A stretch of 64,000 nucleotides of DNA from positions 62,001-126,000 of the forward strand of contig JACPNX010000044.1 of the NCBI GenBank assembly GCA_016185275.1, in the 5' to 3' direction. A program made the position numbers and the translations under genes. The notes under the pieces were generated by a model. It saw nothing but the letters and a program-made list of their open reading frames with translations. It was not told the origin of the DNA and did no database searches. Positions 56,669 to 62,874 of the stretch are shown one piece after another (the stretch's first letter is position 1; each line of letters begins with the position of its first letter). Origin of the DNA: Actinomycetota bacterium (GTDB lineage: Bacteria > Actinomycetota > Acidimicrobiia > Acidimicrobiales > Iamiaceae).

Positions 56669-57058
56669 CTACGTCGTCAGGATGCGCAGCGCGGTGTGGC
56701 GGGCCATGACGTCGAAGTCGACATCGGCGTGGACGACCTCCACGTCGTGTCGGATGGCGACGGCCGCGATGAGACAGTCGATCAGCTTGCGCACCGGTTC
56801 TCCGCGGGTTCGGCAGGTTCGGTACAGCGAGGCACCGGTCTCGTAGTCCAGGGCATCGGTGGGCAGCAGCGTCGCCCGCGCCAGCAGCCCGCGCAGGTCC
56901 TTCAGATGGCGCTCGTCGCGCGCTCCCGCCAGGACCTCCATGCGGACCGGATGGCATGTCGCGACCTTCGCCGCCAGGAGCTCGTCGACGAGCTCGCAGG
57001 TCGGGCTGCGCGTGTCGCGTAGGAACTCCACCCAGGCGGAGGTGTCGACGAGAATCAC
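56669..57058 (-). CDS. vapC: PIN-domain toxin, VapC type (129 aa)
   Basis: VILVDTSAWVEFLR carries the first Asp, HPVRMEVLAG the Glu and KLIDCLIAAVAIRHDVEVVHADVDFD the C-terminal acidic residues, giving a complete VapC metal site. GTG 57058 overlaps the antitoxin stop by four bases (GTGA). It is a ribonuclease toxin that targets tRNA or rRNA in characterised relatives. Confidence 0.92.
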   Translation of the reverse strand: MILVDTSAWVEFLRDTRSPTCELVDELLAAKVATCHPVRMEVLAGARDERHLKDLRGLLARATLLPTDALDYETGASLYRTCRTRGEPVRKLIDCLIAAVAIRHDVEVVHADVDFDVMARHTALRILTT

Positions 57059-57258
57059 GCGGTACGGGTCGAGCGCATGGCGTCGAGGTCGCCCTCCCAA
57101 CCCGAGCCGCGCAAGGCGCGGGCATCGTCGACGCCGAGTGGTTCGCTGGCGAGGCTTCGCAGCGCGAAGTTGACGGCCTCGCGCTTCGTCGGAAGGTGGT
57201 AGCGCTGCATCACGACTTGGCAGGCGTCGTCGTCGATGTCGATGTTGGTGCGTCCCAT
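57055..57258 (-). CDS. vapB: VapB-type antitoxin, ribbon-helix-helix (67 aa)
   Basis: RTNIDIDDDACQVVMQRYHLPTKREAVNFALRSL is a VapB/DUF2191-type ribbon-helix-helix DNA-binding domain, and the C-terminal GSGWEGDLDAMR is the typical toxin-binding tail. ATG 57258 has no clear Shine-Dalgarno site. GTGTGTATGG around the start suggests a very short leader. It is coupled to the toxin gene. Confidence 0.9.
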   Translation of the reverse strand: MGRTNIDIDDDACQVVMQRYHLPTKREAVNFALRSLASEPLGVDDARALRGSGWEGDLDAMRSTRTA

Positions 57259-57290
57259 ACACACACGCTACACCGCTGCCTTCCACGGGC

Positions 57291-57408
57291 CGGTGCCTCA
57301 GGGTGCGGTGAGCGCCGCGACCACTTGGTCGAAGGCGGTGTCGGCGAGGGTTCGTAGTTCGTCGTCGGTGCGGTCCTGGATCGGGTGGGCGACGAAGACC
57401 CGTCGCAC
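57291..57408. repeat. Direct repeat copy 1, 118 bp, identical to 58877-58994
   Basis: This segment is identical over 118 bp to the 3' end of the UGSC selenoprotein gene, in the same orientation. It encodes only the last 40 or so codons (VFVAHPIQDRTDDELRTLADTAFDQV... on the minus strand) and lacks the UGA codon. It ends at the junction with another part of the same locus (see the remnant entry). Confidence 0.9.
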
Positions 57409-57568
57409 GCCGGTCGTGGGCGCACCTCCACGGTGACGGGCTCGGCGCCGGTGGCTCCGTTGACCCTCCCGGCGATGATGGTCGAGAACAGACCGGCTCC
57501 GCCGCCGCGAGCTGCAGCCCCCGGCCGATGCCGAGGTTGGCCCGGTTGCTCGTGCCGAGCGCCTTGAC
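57291..57568 (-). pseudogene. Rearranged remnant of the UGSC selenoprotein operon
   Basis: Three blocks of the intact operon at 58884-60874 are joined here. Block 57291-57408 equals 58877-58994. Block 57411 to about 57507 matches 59441 to about 59537 with several substitutions, one of which changes the UGSC start ATG to ACG. Block 57508 to about 57568 matches 60037 to about 60097, inside the thioredoxin-domain gene. The Sec codon and most of both genes are deleted, so nothing functional can be made. Confidence 0.8.
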
Positions 57569-58572: not shown

Positions 58573-58876
58573 TCCGAAACCGGTGGAGCCAGAACCTCCA
58601 TGCGTTGACGACGGGAGGCGCGGTCGTGTCTGAGCACGGTTCCACATCGAGCGACGAGCCGTTACTCAGGCACGGACGCATCCATCTTCGCCCGGTCGCT
58701 GCAGCACACTGCCGGGCCATCCACGAGGCAGAGACGATTGGCAGCGCAGTACGGCGCTGGCGGCAACGCGTTCGACCGCGTCGCCCCAGGGGTTCGTTCG
58801 CGGCCTATGGGCCGGAGTTTTGGCGCAGTTCGTGGTCGTCGGGCGGGGTGGCGATGCCAAGGGACCGCCTCGCTCT
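58573..58876. other. Spacer of 304 bp with no recognised gene
   Basis: Only short open frames without ribosome binding sites or domain signals are present. The 3' end of this spacer abuts the second 118-bp direct repeat, so it is part of the segment that lies between the intact and the decayed UGSC loci. Confidence 0.4.
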
Positions 58877-58994
58877 CGGTGCCTCAGGGTGCGGTGAGCG
58901 CCGCGACCACTTGGTCGAAGGCGGTGTCGGCGAGGGTTCGTAGTTCGTCGTCGGTGCGGTCCTGGATCGGGTGGGCGACGAAGACCCGTCGCAC
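58877..58994. repeat. Direct repeat copy 2, 118 bp, 3' end of the UGSC gene
   Basis: This is identical to 57291-57408 and in the same orientation. Here the sequence is the functional end of the selenoprotein gene. The two copies are 1586 bp apart and could recombine, which would delete the two lower-GC secreted-protein genes between them. Confidence 0.9.
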
Positions 58995-59447
58995 ACCGGG
59001 CGCGCCGAGGGCGGTGGCTTGGCGGTCGGCCGCGTCGACGAACTCGGTGGAGGCGACGAACACCGACGGCACGCCGCGGCGCTCGAGATCGACGATGTCG
59101 TGCACACTGCACGACGTGCACGAACCTCAGTCGGCCAGCGCCTCGATGACCACATCGCAGCGCTGGGCGATCTCGTAGCGCAGGTCGGCCGGGGCCGGCT
59201 TGGTGAACGTCGGTTTGGTGAAGCGTTCGACGGTCCAGCCCCGCTCGGCGGCCGGCGCGGCGATGCGGTCGAGGAAGACGTTGCCGCGGGCCTTGGAGAT
59301 GTCGAGCAGCCCGATGCGCCGGCCGTCGAGCGATGCCGGCCGCTCGGCGAGGGGGACGGCGGCGGCAGTGCGCTCGCCGGTGGGGTCGAGCACGATGCGA
59401 GCCGGTGCAGCCGCGTCGGTCGGCGATGCGGGCGGGACCTCGGTCAT
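58884..59447 (-). CDS. UGSC-family selenoprotein with in-frame UGA as Sec107 (187 aa)
   Basis: From ATG 59447 the frame runs 106 codons to a TGA (59129-59127) and continues in the same frame for 80 more codons to the real stop at 58884. Read as selenocysteine, the junction is A-D-U-G-S-C-T-S-C-S-V-H-D, the hallmark of the UGSC (seleno)protein family, with Cys110 and Cys113 close to Sec107. The downstream part (DIVDLERRGVPSVFVAST, FVAHPIQDRTDDEL) is clearly coding. A bSECIS-like hairpin begins 11 nt after the UGA. The ATG overlaps the stop of the thioredoxin-domain gene (ATGA), so it is coupled to it. Redox chemistry is likely, but the reaction is unknown. Ordinary annotation would truncate it at the UGA. 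Confidence 0.88.
59097..59115 (-). promoter_or_regulatory. bSECIS-like hairpin 11 nt after the selenocysteine UGA
   Basis: On the minus strand GTCGTGCA, loop GTG and TGCACGAC form a perfect 8-bp stem, with 11 nt (59116-59126) between UGA and stem. This spacing and size are like those of the E. coli fdhF element that SelB binds. An overlapping alternative stem, TCGTGCAC with GTGCACGA (59116-59123 and 59098-59105), has a 10-nt loop. The role in Sec insertion is inferred from position and shape. Confidence 0.7.
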
Positions 59448-60874
59448 GGGCGCACCTCCACGGTGACGGGCTCGGAGCCGGTGGCTCCGTTGACCCACCC
59501 GCCGATGATGGTCGAGAACAGACCCGCTCCGCCGCCGGCGTGGACGACGAGCAGCCCGCCGGGCCGGAACTTGGGCAACGTGGTGCCGGCGAACGCCTCG
59601 GGCACGCCCTCGGCGATGCCGCCCGCGCCGCGTACGAGGTCGTCGCCGGGAAGCTGCAGCAGCCCGTCGAGCTCGGCCAGCAAACGGGCCCGGTCCCAGC
59701 CCGCTTCGTGGAAGACGCGGCCGTGCTCGGGGGACAGGACGAGCACGGCGTCGAAGGCCATGGGCAGCTTCGGGTGCTGCACGGTGCGCAGGCACGTGGC
59801 CAACGTCCGAGCCAGCGACTCCGGCGTGCGCGACAGCTGATCCACCACTCCTCGCGGGCCTTCGCCGGCGAACAGCGTGACGGTCGACGTACCGGGCGCC
59901 AAGCCGCGGCTCACCGACAGCGGCTCGAACGGCGAGCCCTCCTCGTCCTCGGCGAAGCAGAACGACAGCTTGCCGGGGTTGCCCTGCGTGGCCCGGTCGA
60001 CCTCGCCGGGACGGCCCCCACCGACGTTGCGCACCACGAGCTGCAGCGCCCGGCCGATGCCGAGGTTGGCCCGGTTGCCCTGGCCGAGCGCGTTGAGGCC
60101 GCTGTTCATCCCGGCGCGCCGGCGGATCGGCCCGTTCACGATGATCACCGGTCCCACCGGCATCGTCGTGGCCAGCAGGCCGTGCATGTTGAACGTGTCG
60201 GTGCAGGCGGCCTCGACCGCGGCGAGCACGACCGGCAGGTGCTCGGGCCGGCAACCGGCCAGCACCGCGTTCACCGCCACCTTCTCGACCGTGCACTCGA
60301 CGAGGTCGGGCGGGACGACCGCGACCACCTCGTCGGGCTCCCTCGTGGTCCCGTCGAGCATGCGCAGGACACGCTCCGGCGTCGGCGGCACGACCGGCAG
60401 CCCGTCCGACCACCCGCGCTCGAACATCGCCTCCATGTCGTCTTCGGCCGCGGCCAGCTCGATGCGCCGGCTGCGGAGCCGCCCGCCCTCGAACCGGGCC
60501 CGCAGCGCGTCGACGCGGTCGGGGTCCACGGTGAGCGACCCGCAGCCGGGCCGGAACGGCGGCAGGTCCTCCCCGAGGCGCTCGACGCCGGTGAGCGTGC
60601 GCCAGCGGTCTCGGTCCCAGCCGAACGTGCGACCGGCCTCGGCGCCGCCCTCGTAGCGCACGAGCGTCGGGACGGTGTCCAGGTCGAGCCGCCACGACAG
60701 CTCGAGGCCCGTGTCGTCGAGCGCACCGCCGATCTCCTCGGGGAAGGCGGGGTCGTCCTGGCTGTAGACGGCGAGGTCGAGCCCGGCCGCGCGCAGCTCG
60801 GCCAGCACCGGGCCCACCATCCGGCAGGTGGCGCAGTCGCGCTTGACGACGGCGGTGAACGAGGGAGCCGCCAC
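59444..60874 (-). CDS. Thioredoxin-like domain fused to an uncharacterised domain, UGSC partner (476 aa)
   Basis: Residues 1 to about 95 look like a thioredoxin fold with a redox CxxC (Cys14 and Cys17 in KRDCATCRM) and a cis-Pro-like VPTLVRYEGG. Residues about 145-476 form a domain I do not recognise, with GLPVVPPTPERV, ALGQGNRANLGIGRALQLV, HPKLPMAFDAVLVLSPEH and a glycine-rich end (HAGGGAGLFSTIIGG). GTG 60874 starts it, and the stop overlaps the UGSC start (ATGA). The 12-bp gap to the hydrolase upstream makes one operon of three genes. It probably exchanges electrons with the selenoprotein (inference). Confidence 0.75.
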   Translation of the reverse strand: MAAPSFTAVVKRDCATCRMVGPVLAELRAAGLDLAVYSQDDPAFPEEIGGALDDTGLELSWRLDLDTVPTLVRYEGGAEAGRTFGWDRDRWRTLTGVERLGEDLPPFRPGCGSLTVDPDRVDALRARFEGGRLRSRRIELAAAEDDMEAMFERGWSDGLPVVPPTPERVLRMLDGTTREPDEVVAVVPPDLVECTVEKVAVNAVLAGCRPEHLPVVLAAVEAACTDTFNMHGLLATTMPVGPVIIVNGPIRRRAGMNSGLNALGQGNRANLGIGRALQLVVRNVGGGRPGEVDRATQGNPGKLSFCFAEDEEGSPFEPLSVSRGLAPGTSTVTLFAGEGPRGVVDQLSRTPESLARTLATCLRTVQHPKLPMAFDAVLVLSPEHGRVFHEAGWDRARLLAELDGLLQLPGDDLVRGAGGIAEGVPEAFAGTTLPKFRPGGLLVVHAGGGAGLFSTIIGGWVNGATGSEPVTVEVRP

Positions 60875-60886
60875 GACGTGTCGCCG

Positions 60887-61774
60887 CTACTCGGAGACGG
60901 TCACGAAGTCGACCACGAGCCGGTTCACCTCGGCCGGCCGCTCGACGTGGAGGAAGTGCCCGGCTCCCTCCACCATCTCGAACCGTGACCCGGCATCGTC
61001 GCGCAGGACCTCGGCCGCGCCACGGGCGAGCTCGGGCCCGAGGCAGCCGTCGCCGTCGCCGTGCAGGTACAGCAGCGGCTGCGGCGGTAGCCGGTCGGCG
61101 TGGCTCTGCGCGTCGTCGTAGCGGGCGTCCTTGGGACCGTCGCCCAGCATCGCCCGGTAGTAGCCGAGCGCGGCGGCCAGGTTGGCCGGGTCGCGCAGGG
61201 CGTCCTTCACGTGGGCGAGGTCCTCGGTGGCGTCGTAGCCCGGTGACCAGTCGGCCCAGAGCCCGTCGATGAACGCGAGGTCGTCCATGGCGACGGCCAT
61301 GTCGGACAGCGGGTGCTGGAAGAAGAACATGTACCAGGAGCGCCGCAGCTGGGCGTAGGTGAAGAACCCGCTGCCCATCGCGCCGGGTGGAGGCACGGCC
61401 ATGGTGACCACGCGGCGCCAGCGCTCGGGCTGCCAGCCGGCCGCCGCGTAGGCCGTGATCGCCCCCCAGTCGTGCCCGATGAGCACGGCCCGCGCGTCAC
61501 CGCCGAGCGCTTCGTGGAGGGTGGCGGCATCGGTGGCGAGCGCACCGACCTGGTAGAGGCCGTCCGGGGGCATCTCCGTGGGCGCGTAGCCGCGCAGGAA
61601 CGGAGCGACGGCCCGGAACCCGGCGTCGGCCAAGTCGGGCAGCAGGTGCCGCCACGTCCAGGCCGAGTCGGGAAAGCCGTGGAGGCACAGCGCCAGCGGA
61701 CCGTCGGCCGGGCCGGCCGCGAGGGCGGCGAAGGTGAGGCCGTTGGCTTCGATCGACGTCGTGGCGTGATCCAC
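60887..61774 (-). CDS. Alpha/beta hydrolase, epoxide-hydrolase/dehalogenase type (295 aa)
   Basis: HGFPDSAWTWRHLLPDL (about 30-46) is the oxyanion HGxP motif. The nucleophile elbow is LIGHDWGAI, with Asp in place of Ser as in epoxide hydrolases and haloalkane dehalogenases. The C-terminal catalytic His is in EGAGHFLHVERP. The cap domain has YMFFFQHPLSDMAVAMDDL. GTG 61774 gives the usual N-terminus; the frame is open to TTG 61849. It is the first gene of the operon that contains the selenoprotein, so their substrates may be linked. Confidence 0.88.
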   Translation of the reverse strand: MDHATTSIEANGLTFAALAAGPADGPLALCLHGFPDSAWTWRHLLPDLADAGFRAVAPFLRGYAPTEMPPDGLYQVGALATDAATLHEALGGDARAVLIGHDWGAITAYAAAGWQPERWRRVVTMAVPPPGAMGSGFFTYAQLRRSWYMFFFQHPLSDMAVAMDDLAFIDGLWADWSPGYDATEDLAHVKDALRDPANLAAALGYYRAMLGDGPKDARYDDAQSHADRLPPQPLLYLHGDGDGCLGPELARGAAEVLRDDAGSRFEMVEGAGHFLHVERPAEVNRLVVDFVTVSE

Positions 61775-61911
61775 CGGTCGGACCGTAGTGGCCAGCGCCG
61801 CGGTGCGAGTCGGGAAGGGGGCCCACCCGTCGATCGTCGCCGTTGACAATGGGCGCGGGTTCGGTTTACCCTTCCAGCGGGTGATCGGATCCGACGACGA
61901 CGGGATTGGCG

Positions 61912-62874
61912 ATGAGGGGCGGTAAGGCGCGAGTGGAGCGGCGAGGAGCCCGAAAGTTCAGTCGGATCGGGATCATCGGCGCTGTTGGGACCGCCGCCGT
62001 CATAGTCGGAGGCCCCCCGGCGAAAGCGTCCTGGCAGGGTCGAACGCTGCCAGCATCGTCGGACGTGCCGCCTCCCCCGGGCATGGTGGACTGGCCCGTG
62101 GATCATGGGGACGGCTGGATTCACTACCCAAACCCGGTATTGCCGAGGGCACTGGGCAAGGCTTCGCCAAGGCCCAGGTTCGTCAAGGGAAGCAGAGACG
62201 GCAACGGCGACTGCCTCTTTGCCGACATACAGGTCGTGTCGCCTGGAAGTTCCGGCGTCTTCACGGAGGACGTCGCGTTCAACCCGACCACCTGTGACCG
62301 TATGGTCCTCACCAGTCCGCTGGATGCCGCGGCGTCGACCGCCTTGGCGAACCTGACGGCCGAGCCCGCCTCCCCTCCGGCGACGACGGCAGCGGCCGGC
62401 CCGACCGGCCCCGTTGGATCGCAGAAGTCGTCCTGGTACGACCCCGTGCAAATCACGATCACCTCATTGGCGGCAAATGCGGCGATCAACTACGACGGCC
62501 ATGGCAACGACACCTACGGTGCCAGCAGCTACGTCTTCAAGTACGATGGATGGACCGGCGGCCCGCCGGCGCTGCGGCCAACGGATTTCGGCGACGACCC
62601 CCTGCAACTCATCGCAAGTGTCACGAACTACAATCGCGACTTTCTCGCAATCATGATCGCTCTTGCGACCTTGTCGGGCGTACCCGGGGCATCAGCCGCA
62701 GTTATGGCTGCATGTGGGTTCCCGACCAGTACCCTCGCCAGGTTTTCGCACTATGAGGTCGTCGATGTCTACAAGTCTGGGCAAGTTGTCGGACAGGACA
62801 ACGACACAAAATCGGGCGCATGCAGCAATCTCGTCCACCATCATCAGTGGACCCGCAACTACAAGCAACGGTAG
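61912..62874 (+). CDS. Exported protein of unknown function (320 aa)
   Basis: The N-terminus has a long basic region (ERRGARKFSRI, twin-arginine-like but not canonical) and a hydrophobic segment ending near PPAKASWQG, so Sec or Tat export is likely. The mature part is rich in Thr, Asn, Asp and Gly. It contains DGNGDCLFADIQVVSPGSSG and DGHGNDTYGASSYVFKYDG, and two or three Cys pairs may form disulfides. No domain is recognised. Its GC content is lower than the backbone. The next lipoprotein gene begins 12 bp downstream. Confidence 0.6.
   Translation: MRGGKARVERRGARKFSRIGIIGAVGTAAVIVGGPPAKASWQGRTLPASSDVPPPPGMVDWPVDHGDGWIHYPNPVLPRALGKASPRPRFVKGSRDGNGDCLFADIQVVSPGSSGVFTEDVAFNPTTCDRMVLTSPLDAAASTALANLTAEPASPPATTAAAGPTGPVGSQKSSWYDPVQITITSLAANAAINYDGHGNDTYGASSYVFKYDGWTGGPPALRPTDFGDDPLQLIASVTNYNRDFLAIMIALATLSGVPGASAAVMAACGFPTSTLARFSHYEVVDVYKSGQVVGQDNDTKSGACSNLVHHHQWTRNYKQR

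Follow-up and report, generated by a model that had tools for sequence, protein, structure and literature searches.

The 64,000-nucleotide stretch analysed here (the window; positions 62,001 to 126,000 of contig JACPNX010000044.1, from an actinobacterial assembly placed in the Iamiaceae) carries on its minus strand a UGSC-family gene whose frame is interrupted by an internal TGA. The frame starts with an ATG at 59447, runs for 106 codons to a TGA at 59129-59127 and continues for 80 codons to a terminal TGA, so that the gene occupies 58884-59447 and its read-through translation has 187 residues. When the internal TGA, codon 107, is translated as selenocysteine (Sec), the motif reads A-D-U-G-S-C-T-S-C, in which Sec107 and Cys110 form a UxxC pair. 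The initial annotation, made from the sequence alone, had given these coordinates, both codon counts and the motif U-G-S-C-T-S-C exactly, leaving the strand unstated, and had assigned the product to the UGSC family. That assignment holds, as the product scores above the curated cut-offs of both PF24696 (E=1.4e-51; 175.4 bits, cut-off 25) and NF041046, the model named 'UGSC family (seleno)protein' (166.7 bits, cut-off 125), and its U107-G-S-C110 aligns with the motif of 28 relatives. Positions 107 and 110 are an invariant Sec/Cys pair in all 29 aligned sequences, an alignment from which the fused homologue L046, described below, is absent. The hidden Markov model match, the Sec/Cys motif and the position of the downstream hairpin are those of the family and nothing essential differs, which makes this an ordinary Sec-type member; the nearest named relatives are metagenome-assembled genomes of Acidimicrobiales and other Actinomycetota. 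The family match, together with the evidence given next, indicates that the window gene is almost certainly a UGSC-family selenoprotein gene whose apparent stop is read as Sec. TGA is thus used twice in the gene, as the Sec codon (59127-59129) and as the terminator (58884-58886), and the conserved hairpin follows the first.

Conservation of the internal TGA was followed in 110 homologous loci, 30 of them from a phylum sample of 396 genomes, also used for the family and genome counts below, and 80 from named relatives that were the best 80 of 428 and mostly close. The window protein matched 106 of these loci, and TGA occupies the Sec codon in 101 of them, flanked on both sides by conserved sequence; four of the other five loci have Cys, and the last (L045), which was at first unparsed, was found to carry U-D-G-C. 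In the family search of the phylum sample, which made no selection for TGA, one in-frame TGA was present in 35 of the 43 matches above the cut-off, two of the eight non-TGA matches being short partial ones. The Sec machinery is distributed accordingly: a selA match was found in 22 of the 23 genomes with a TGA-type UGSC gene (the exception being G036) versus 214 among the remaining 373 (Fisher p=1e-4); of the four genomes whose UGSC genes are all of the Cys or Met type, selA was matched in G294 but in none of G150, G102 and G136. In the host genome, which measures 3.44 Mb and is 92.7% complete, all the genes that had been predicted on the strength of the TGA are present. selA (399.6 bits) and selD (335.3 bits) are above their cut-offs, as is tRNA-Sec (66.4 bits), whose anticodon is given by ARAGORN as tca; selB, about 80 nt further on from selA, matches over positions 2-339 and in a second piece with 233.1 bits, formally just below the curated cut-off of 242.25.

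The internal TGA is followed by a hairpin at 59097-59115 on the minus strand, defined by comparative pairing, in which GUCGUGCA (59115-59108) pairs with UGCACGAC (59104-59097) in an 8-bp stem closed by the loop GUG, or in 7 bp closed by AGUGU. It begins exactly 11 nt past the TGA, the spacing given when it was first likened to a selenocysteine insertion sequence (SECIS). The bacterial SECIS model set out in a recent review (PMC13188914) allows a stem of 4-16 bp, a loop of 3-9 nt with a G among its first two nucleotides and 16-37 nt from UGA to loop; the window hairpin fits it, with a stem of 8 bp, a loop of 3 nt or AGUGU (conforming to N1 G [G/U] N N2) in which that G is present, and 18-19 nt from UGA to loop. 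Its single-sequence folding energy is unremarkable (shuffle z-score 0.05 over 51 nt), and the case for it comes instead from comparison. All eight pairs are found at exactly the same place in 89 of 94 unique sequences drawn from the 101 Sec-type loci, where 2.4 are expected from synonymous randomisation using each gene's own codon use, a count that is not a p-value because related sequences are not independent; for the window sequence alone, the chance of an 8-pair stem under synonymous coding is 0.0044. Both sides change at pair 4, where A-U replaces G-C in four of the 94 sequences, and at pair 7, where G-C replaces C-G in two; the serine codon of the loop is AGT in 93. In a selection of 35 of these sequences, 97.5% of cells are paired and six cells change on both sides, where shuffling gives 0.9. 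The covariation score, 0.102 against 0.050, was reached by none of 500 shuffles; 30 of the 500 had as many as two pairs with a both-sided change, the number observed. A register slid by +2 has a similar score (0.101) but just 47% of its cells paired. RNAalifold recovers the inner six pairs, and the four Cys homologues keep 4, 1, 4 and 3 of the eight. No Rfam model matches the hairpin, whether over the whole window at the gathering score or over 58800-59500 at E up to 1. The comparative pairing and the both-sided changes, rather than the folding energy, show that the hairpin is under selection at the RNA level, beyond what chance would give.

Because the family match, the Sec machinery, the conservation of the TGA, the selection on the hairpin and the co-occurrence with selA all agree, it is nearly certain that UGA codon 107 is decoded as Sec by SelB and tRNA-Sec, guided by the adjacent hairpin. 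Neither of the outcomes that the initial annotation had named as fatal, a genome without Sec machinery or homologues ending at the TGA with no conservation beyond it, was encountered.

Immediately upstream on the same strand lies the gene of a 476-residue protein (59444-60874), recognised as an open reading frame (ORF) and by the co-occurrence of its family with UGSC; its last 4 nt are shared with the beginning of the UGSC gene (ATGA). This partner has an N-terminal thioredoxin-like domain with the motif CATC (approximate limits 60584-60874) and a main domain of about 340 residues (about residues 140-476; 59447-60457) marked by DGLPxxPPT, AGC, GNRAN..GRA and GG. The thioredoxin likeness, which had been seen in the initial annotation, is borne out by hmmsearch of the partner alignment against PDB chains, where thioredoxins are found with a best E of 4.2e-4, and by Foldseek, which also returns thioredoxins; the domain resembles thioredoxin in its CxxC, yet the sequence match is weak and it is fused to the large second domain. 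The latter has no Pfam or NCBIfam match in the window protein. UGSC above its cut-off is present in 27 of the 396 genomes (29 with weak matches counted) and the partner domain in 28 (E up to 1e-5), including all 27 with UGSC (Fisher p 5e-41). In the neighbourhood set, a partner ORF on the same strand accompanies UGSC in 92 of 100 loci; seven of the other eight have under 700 nt of upstream sequence, and L122 has 2.2 kb upstream with no partner there. Two loci below the UGSC cut-off (L047 and L048) were dropped as false positives that look like flavoprotein reductases. The partner lies directly downstream of UGSC in L044, and in L045 (G186:C87) and L046 (G136:C25) the two are fused in a single ORF. 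The partner is therefore a near-constant companion of UGSC, usually adjacent or fused. Of 89 partner sequences, 75 contain a match to CxxC and two a match to CxxS; the cysteine of AGC is present in 89 of 89 partners other than the L045 fusion, where it is Ala (both counts being of simple text patterns).

In two loci (L053 and L054) the partner stands roughly 6.5-7.5 kb upstream of UGSC with other genes between, a natural interruption of the pair. The one additional genome with the partner domain, G183, carries it in tandem on a contig that has no UGSC (L215, G183:C272), and on this stretch and on L216 and L217, which also carry partner domains, UGSC was not detected; the partner family thus appears to be wider than UGSC. 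Relationships of the partner to other proteins were sought with hhalign and not found: not to a GrdE-like profile of ten sequences, as a GrdE/PrdA relative would require (P=0.45), nor to UGSC itself (P=0.18 and 0.25), nor to GRDB (P=0.26 and 0.067). A class I fumarase was also considered for the main domain, on weak Foldseek rows (probability 0.25-0.69), and set aside at an hhalign P of 0.12.

The Sec site of UGSC is reminiscent of that of GrdB, and genes matching PF07355 (GRDB) were therefore gathered for comparison. The model was searched in 246 genomes of the phylum, 52 of which had matches. When extended past the Pfam match, 24 of 24 GRDB genes meet an in-frame TGA right at the end of the match, and the residues that follow it are G-T-G-T-R (11 genes), P-x-C (12) or L-T-C (1). 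These genes (L130-L140, L144-L155 and L158) are full-length or C-terminal only, and several of the full-length ones adjoin GrdE-like and GrdC-like genes, recognised by eye or by mutual similarity. L147 and L151 were left out of the alignments because their read-through ran far beyond the usual end; L157, identical to L155 over the match, was left out of the set, as were L141-L143, L156 and L159. In hhalign comparisons UGSC aligns in register, Sec on Sec, with nine full GrdB-like sequences (A3; P=3.4e-4, probability 37.6) and with 11 shorter GRDB forms (A4; P=3.2e-5, probability 72.8). An alignment of 103 UGSC sequences against 22 merged GRDB sequences gave P=7.8e-8, probability 94.5 and a score of 56.1, and with residues 105-113 masked the flanks still gave P=6.9e-6 and a score of 43.9. 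Controls scored much lower, at 19.8 for the reversed profile and 21.9 for the best of 200 column shuffles; when 128 ORF-family alignments from the same loci served as decoys, the top one was itself a UGSC cluster, the best of the other 127 (two sequences) reached 33.3 and the next 26.5.

The likeness extends from the Sec position through the following helix, strand and Pro-containing stretch, and a UXXC motif is also listed for PrdB in the literature. UGSC is shorter, at 187 residues against the 242 and 436 given for PrdB and GrdB of C. sticklandii, and its partner differs, showing no sequence relationship to the GrdE-like proteins with which it was compared. From the profile comparisons we conclude that UGSC and the Sec domain of GrdB/PrdB probably share a remote homology, which is not PF07355 membership, and suggest that UGSC may be distantly related to the catalytic subunits of the glycine and proline reductases.

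An AlphaFold2 model of UGSC built from 29 relatives (pLDDT 93.3, pTM 0.83) has five strand-helix units (E44 H55 E72 H87 E99 H108 E128 H134 E153 H166), with Sec107 between the third strand (99-105) and the helix 108-123. Foldseek places flavodoxins, TIR domains, lumazine synthases, B12-binding domains and larger multidomain proteins among its top rows, with 23 rows at E up to 0.001 and no thioredoxin among the best 50 of 1698 matches. TM-scores by query length are modest (about 0.3-0.5), so that no close structural relative is claimed, and a search for solved relatives by sequence gave weak unrelated rows only, at E 0.19 or worse. UGSC is thus predicted by the model to be a single flavodoxin-like alpha/beta domain. 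A thioredoxin fold for UGSC itself, considered alongside, finds no match in either the model or the Foldseek rows.

The run at the locus has three tightly packed genes: an alpha/beta hydrolase gene (61849-60887), a 12-nt gap, the partner (60874-59444) and, through the ATGA overlap, UGSC as the last. The hydrolase (60887-61849, minus strand) matches PF00561 (E=4.6e-22) and resembles epoxide hydrolases and haloalkane dehalogenases; its GHDWG nucleophile motif was recognised by eye, and the NCBIfam dehalogenase models match it below their cut-offs. The epoxide-hydrolase-like neighbour proposed in the initial annotation is therefore present, but it is an occasional one, where the partner is near-constant: the hydrolase cluster occurs in 23 of 101 loci, in 21 of the 23 on the same strand, and some of the loci end too soon for it to be seen. 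More distant UGSC loci adjoin genes for CoA-transferase III, acyl-CoA dehydrogenase, short-chain dehydrogenase/reductase (SDR), P450, amidohydrolase 2 and an isocitrate/isopropylmalate-type dehydrogenase, according to locus maps and to Pfam searches of ten chosen proteins from four loci, nine of which matched at E up to 1e-10. In five of the 101 loci (L052, L089, L117, L118 and L119) the partner and UGSC are preceded, on their own strand, by an ORF that by eye is SelB-like.

For D-proline reductase it has been proposed (PMC3091704) that the PrdB selenolate attacks the alpha-carbon of the substrate, that a Cys cleaves the resulting selenoether and that the mixed Se-S bond is then reduced. By analogy, the chemistry of UGSC would be of the same kind, on a substrate held by the partner. 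UGSC would form the catalytic half, and the adjoining partner the other half, of a two-component enzyme, a view taken because of the 27 shared genomes, the L045 and L046 fusions and the 4-nt overlap of the genes. Placed at the N-terminus of a helix, Sec107 would attack an electrophilic carbon of a small substrate through its selenolate; Cys110 would resolve the selenoether into an Se-S bond, releasing the reduced product; and the CxxC of the thioredoxin-like domain would reduce this bond back to selenol and thiol, supplying the electrons. The redox role of the partner is proposed because of that domain, the CxxC in 75 of 89 partners and the invariance of positions 107 and 110. The neighbouring genes suggest that the substrate may be a catabolic one, of the carboxylic acid, CoA ester or epoxide/halide type.

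Several observations weigh against this proposal. Either GRDB subset alone, compared with the larger UGSC alignment, scores 35.6 or 34.7, close to the best decoy (33.3), so that the subsets barely clear the decoys that the merged profile clears well; the homology comes from comparing profiles in pairs and not from a database search with calibrated statistics. None of the 29 aligned UGSC sequences matches PF07355 at E up to 5, a range in which HMMER filters hide most weak matches, and PDB searches with the two GRDB alignments returned nothing and two designed proteins, respectively, leaving no GrdB structure with which to compare the fold directly. Since the partner bears no recognisable likeness to GrdE/PrdA, a pyruvoyl half of the Grd/Prd kind is not evident at UGSC. 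In the L046 fusion Met replaces Sec/Cys and UGxC is missing, the resolving Cys being gone, and 12 of 89 partners have neither CxxC nor CxxS, so that another reductant must serve there. Taken as a whole, the reading of UGSC as a Sec-decoded, flavodoxin-like, GrdB/PrdB-related catalytic half of a two-component enzyme, working through Sec107, Cys110 and the thioredoxin-like domain, is given a probability of about 0.5. We regard as more tentative the further step, that UGSC and its partner may constitute an undescribed class of two-component selenoenzymes, in which a minimal Sec subunit of the GrdB/PrdB type is combined with a new substrate-binding subunit that replaces the pyruvoyl protein and brings its own thioredoxin-like reductant, for a reductive cleavage like that of the Stickland reductases in the catabolism of presumably aerobic Actinobacteria of water and soil.

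The same Met-containing fusion and the partners without a thioredoxin-like motif would suit a catabolic isomerase or lyase, or a ligand-binding pair, in which the Sec or Cys acts as a nucleophile with no net redox turnover or is dispensable, and so would the Cys-type homologues that stand beside SDR, CoA-transferase III and acyl-CoA dehydrogenase genes. The invariance of 107 and 110 among the 29 aligned sequences (L046 not in the set), the retention of Sec in 35 of 43 phylum matches, which argues for redox or strong-nucleophile chemistry, and the CxxC of most partners make this rather unlikely. Somewhat less likely again is the suggestion in the literature of a thioredoxin-fold thiol oxidoreductase, or a peroxidase-like antioxidant: the UxxC motif, the reducing domain on the partner and a GrdB peroxidase activity, named in the title of a cited paper, agree with it, but the predicted fold, with its five strand-helix units, Sec past the third strand and no thioredoxin among the best Foldseek matches, does not, the homology signal points to GRDB, and a constant large partner domain with catabolic neighbours is ill-suited to a stand-alone antioxidant.

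A function of the pair in selenium handling, as a selenide or selenol carrier or in Sec recycling, would accord with the SelB-like ORF upstream of it; that ORF is seen in just five of 101 loci, however, Cys- and Met-type forms occur in genomes with no selA match, and the distant forms lie within CoA-type catabolic clusters, so that we consider such a function improbable. The objection that the TGA really ends translation, or that it arose by a sequencing error or as a lesion in a pseudogene, could appeal to standard translation, which ends there, and to a decayed second copy of the operon about 1.5 kb away; the conservation of the TGA (101 of 106 matching loci) and of the sequence that follows it, a hairpin under selection and a genome equipped for Sec leave it a negligible chance.

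Sec recoding in UGSC is not novel, since the family and its Sec have already been described (PMC2398784, PMC13188914). The family has been known since 2008, with function unknown and a "likely Trx-like fold"; it accounts for 8.2% of the selenoprotein genes in the updated Global Ocean Sampling (GOS) set and is among the most frequent orphan selenoproteins of aquatic metagenomes (PMC9402790); UGSC-motif selenoproteins with a UAG Sec codon have been reported (PMC5330540); and the 2026 review lists UGSC among the families with largely uncharacterised functions (PMC13188914). A fusion of UGSC with a domain called Unknown_1 was reported from the GOS selenoproteome (PMC2398784), an architecture of UGSC plus a second domain like that of L045 and L046, and we infer that Unknown_1 is probably the partner. 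This fusion domain aside, the UGSC literature searched, in its accessible text and with most subscription journals outside it, contains no mention of a relationship to GrdB/PrdB or, by description, of the partner. The gene itself being an ordinary family member, the useful part of the present analysis is the proposed link to the GrdB/PrdB superfamily, the flavodoxin-like fold model and the constant partner; with the published fold questioned and a partner named, 'function unknown' is turned into a concrete biochemical test on two proteins.

The decayed second copy of the operon, found by blastn, consists of three short pieces within 57291-57567 on the minus strand, about 1.5 kb from the intact one. 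The pieces correspond to the UGSC 3' end (57291-57416, 98.4% identical to 58877-59002), the UGSC/partner junction (57411-57507, 94.8% to 59441-59537) and the middle of the partner (57505-57567, 90.5% to 60034-60096), joined as a mosaic with overlaps of 6 and 3 bases. Beside this remnant, at 56669-57264 on the minus strand, the ORFs include by eye a look-alike of a VapB/VapC-type pair of antitoxin and PIN toxin.
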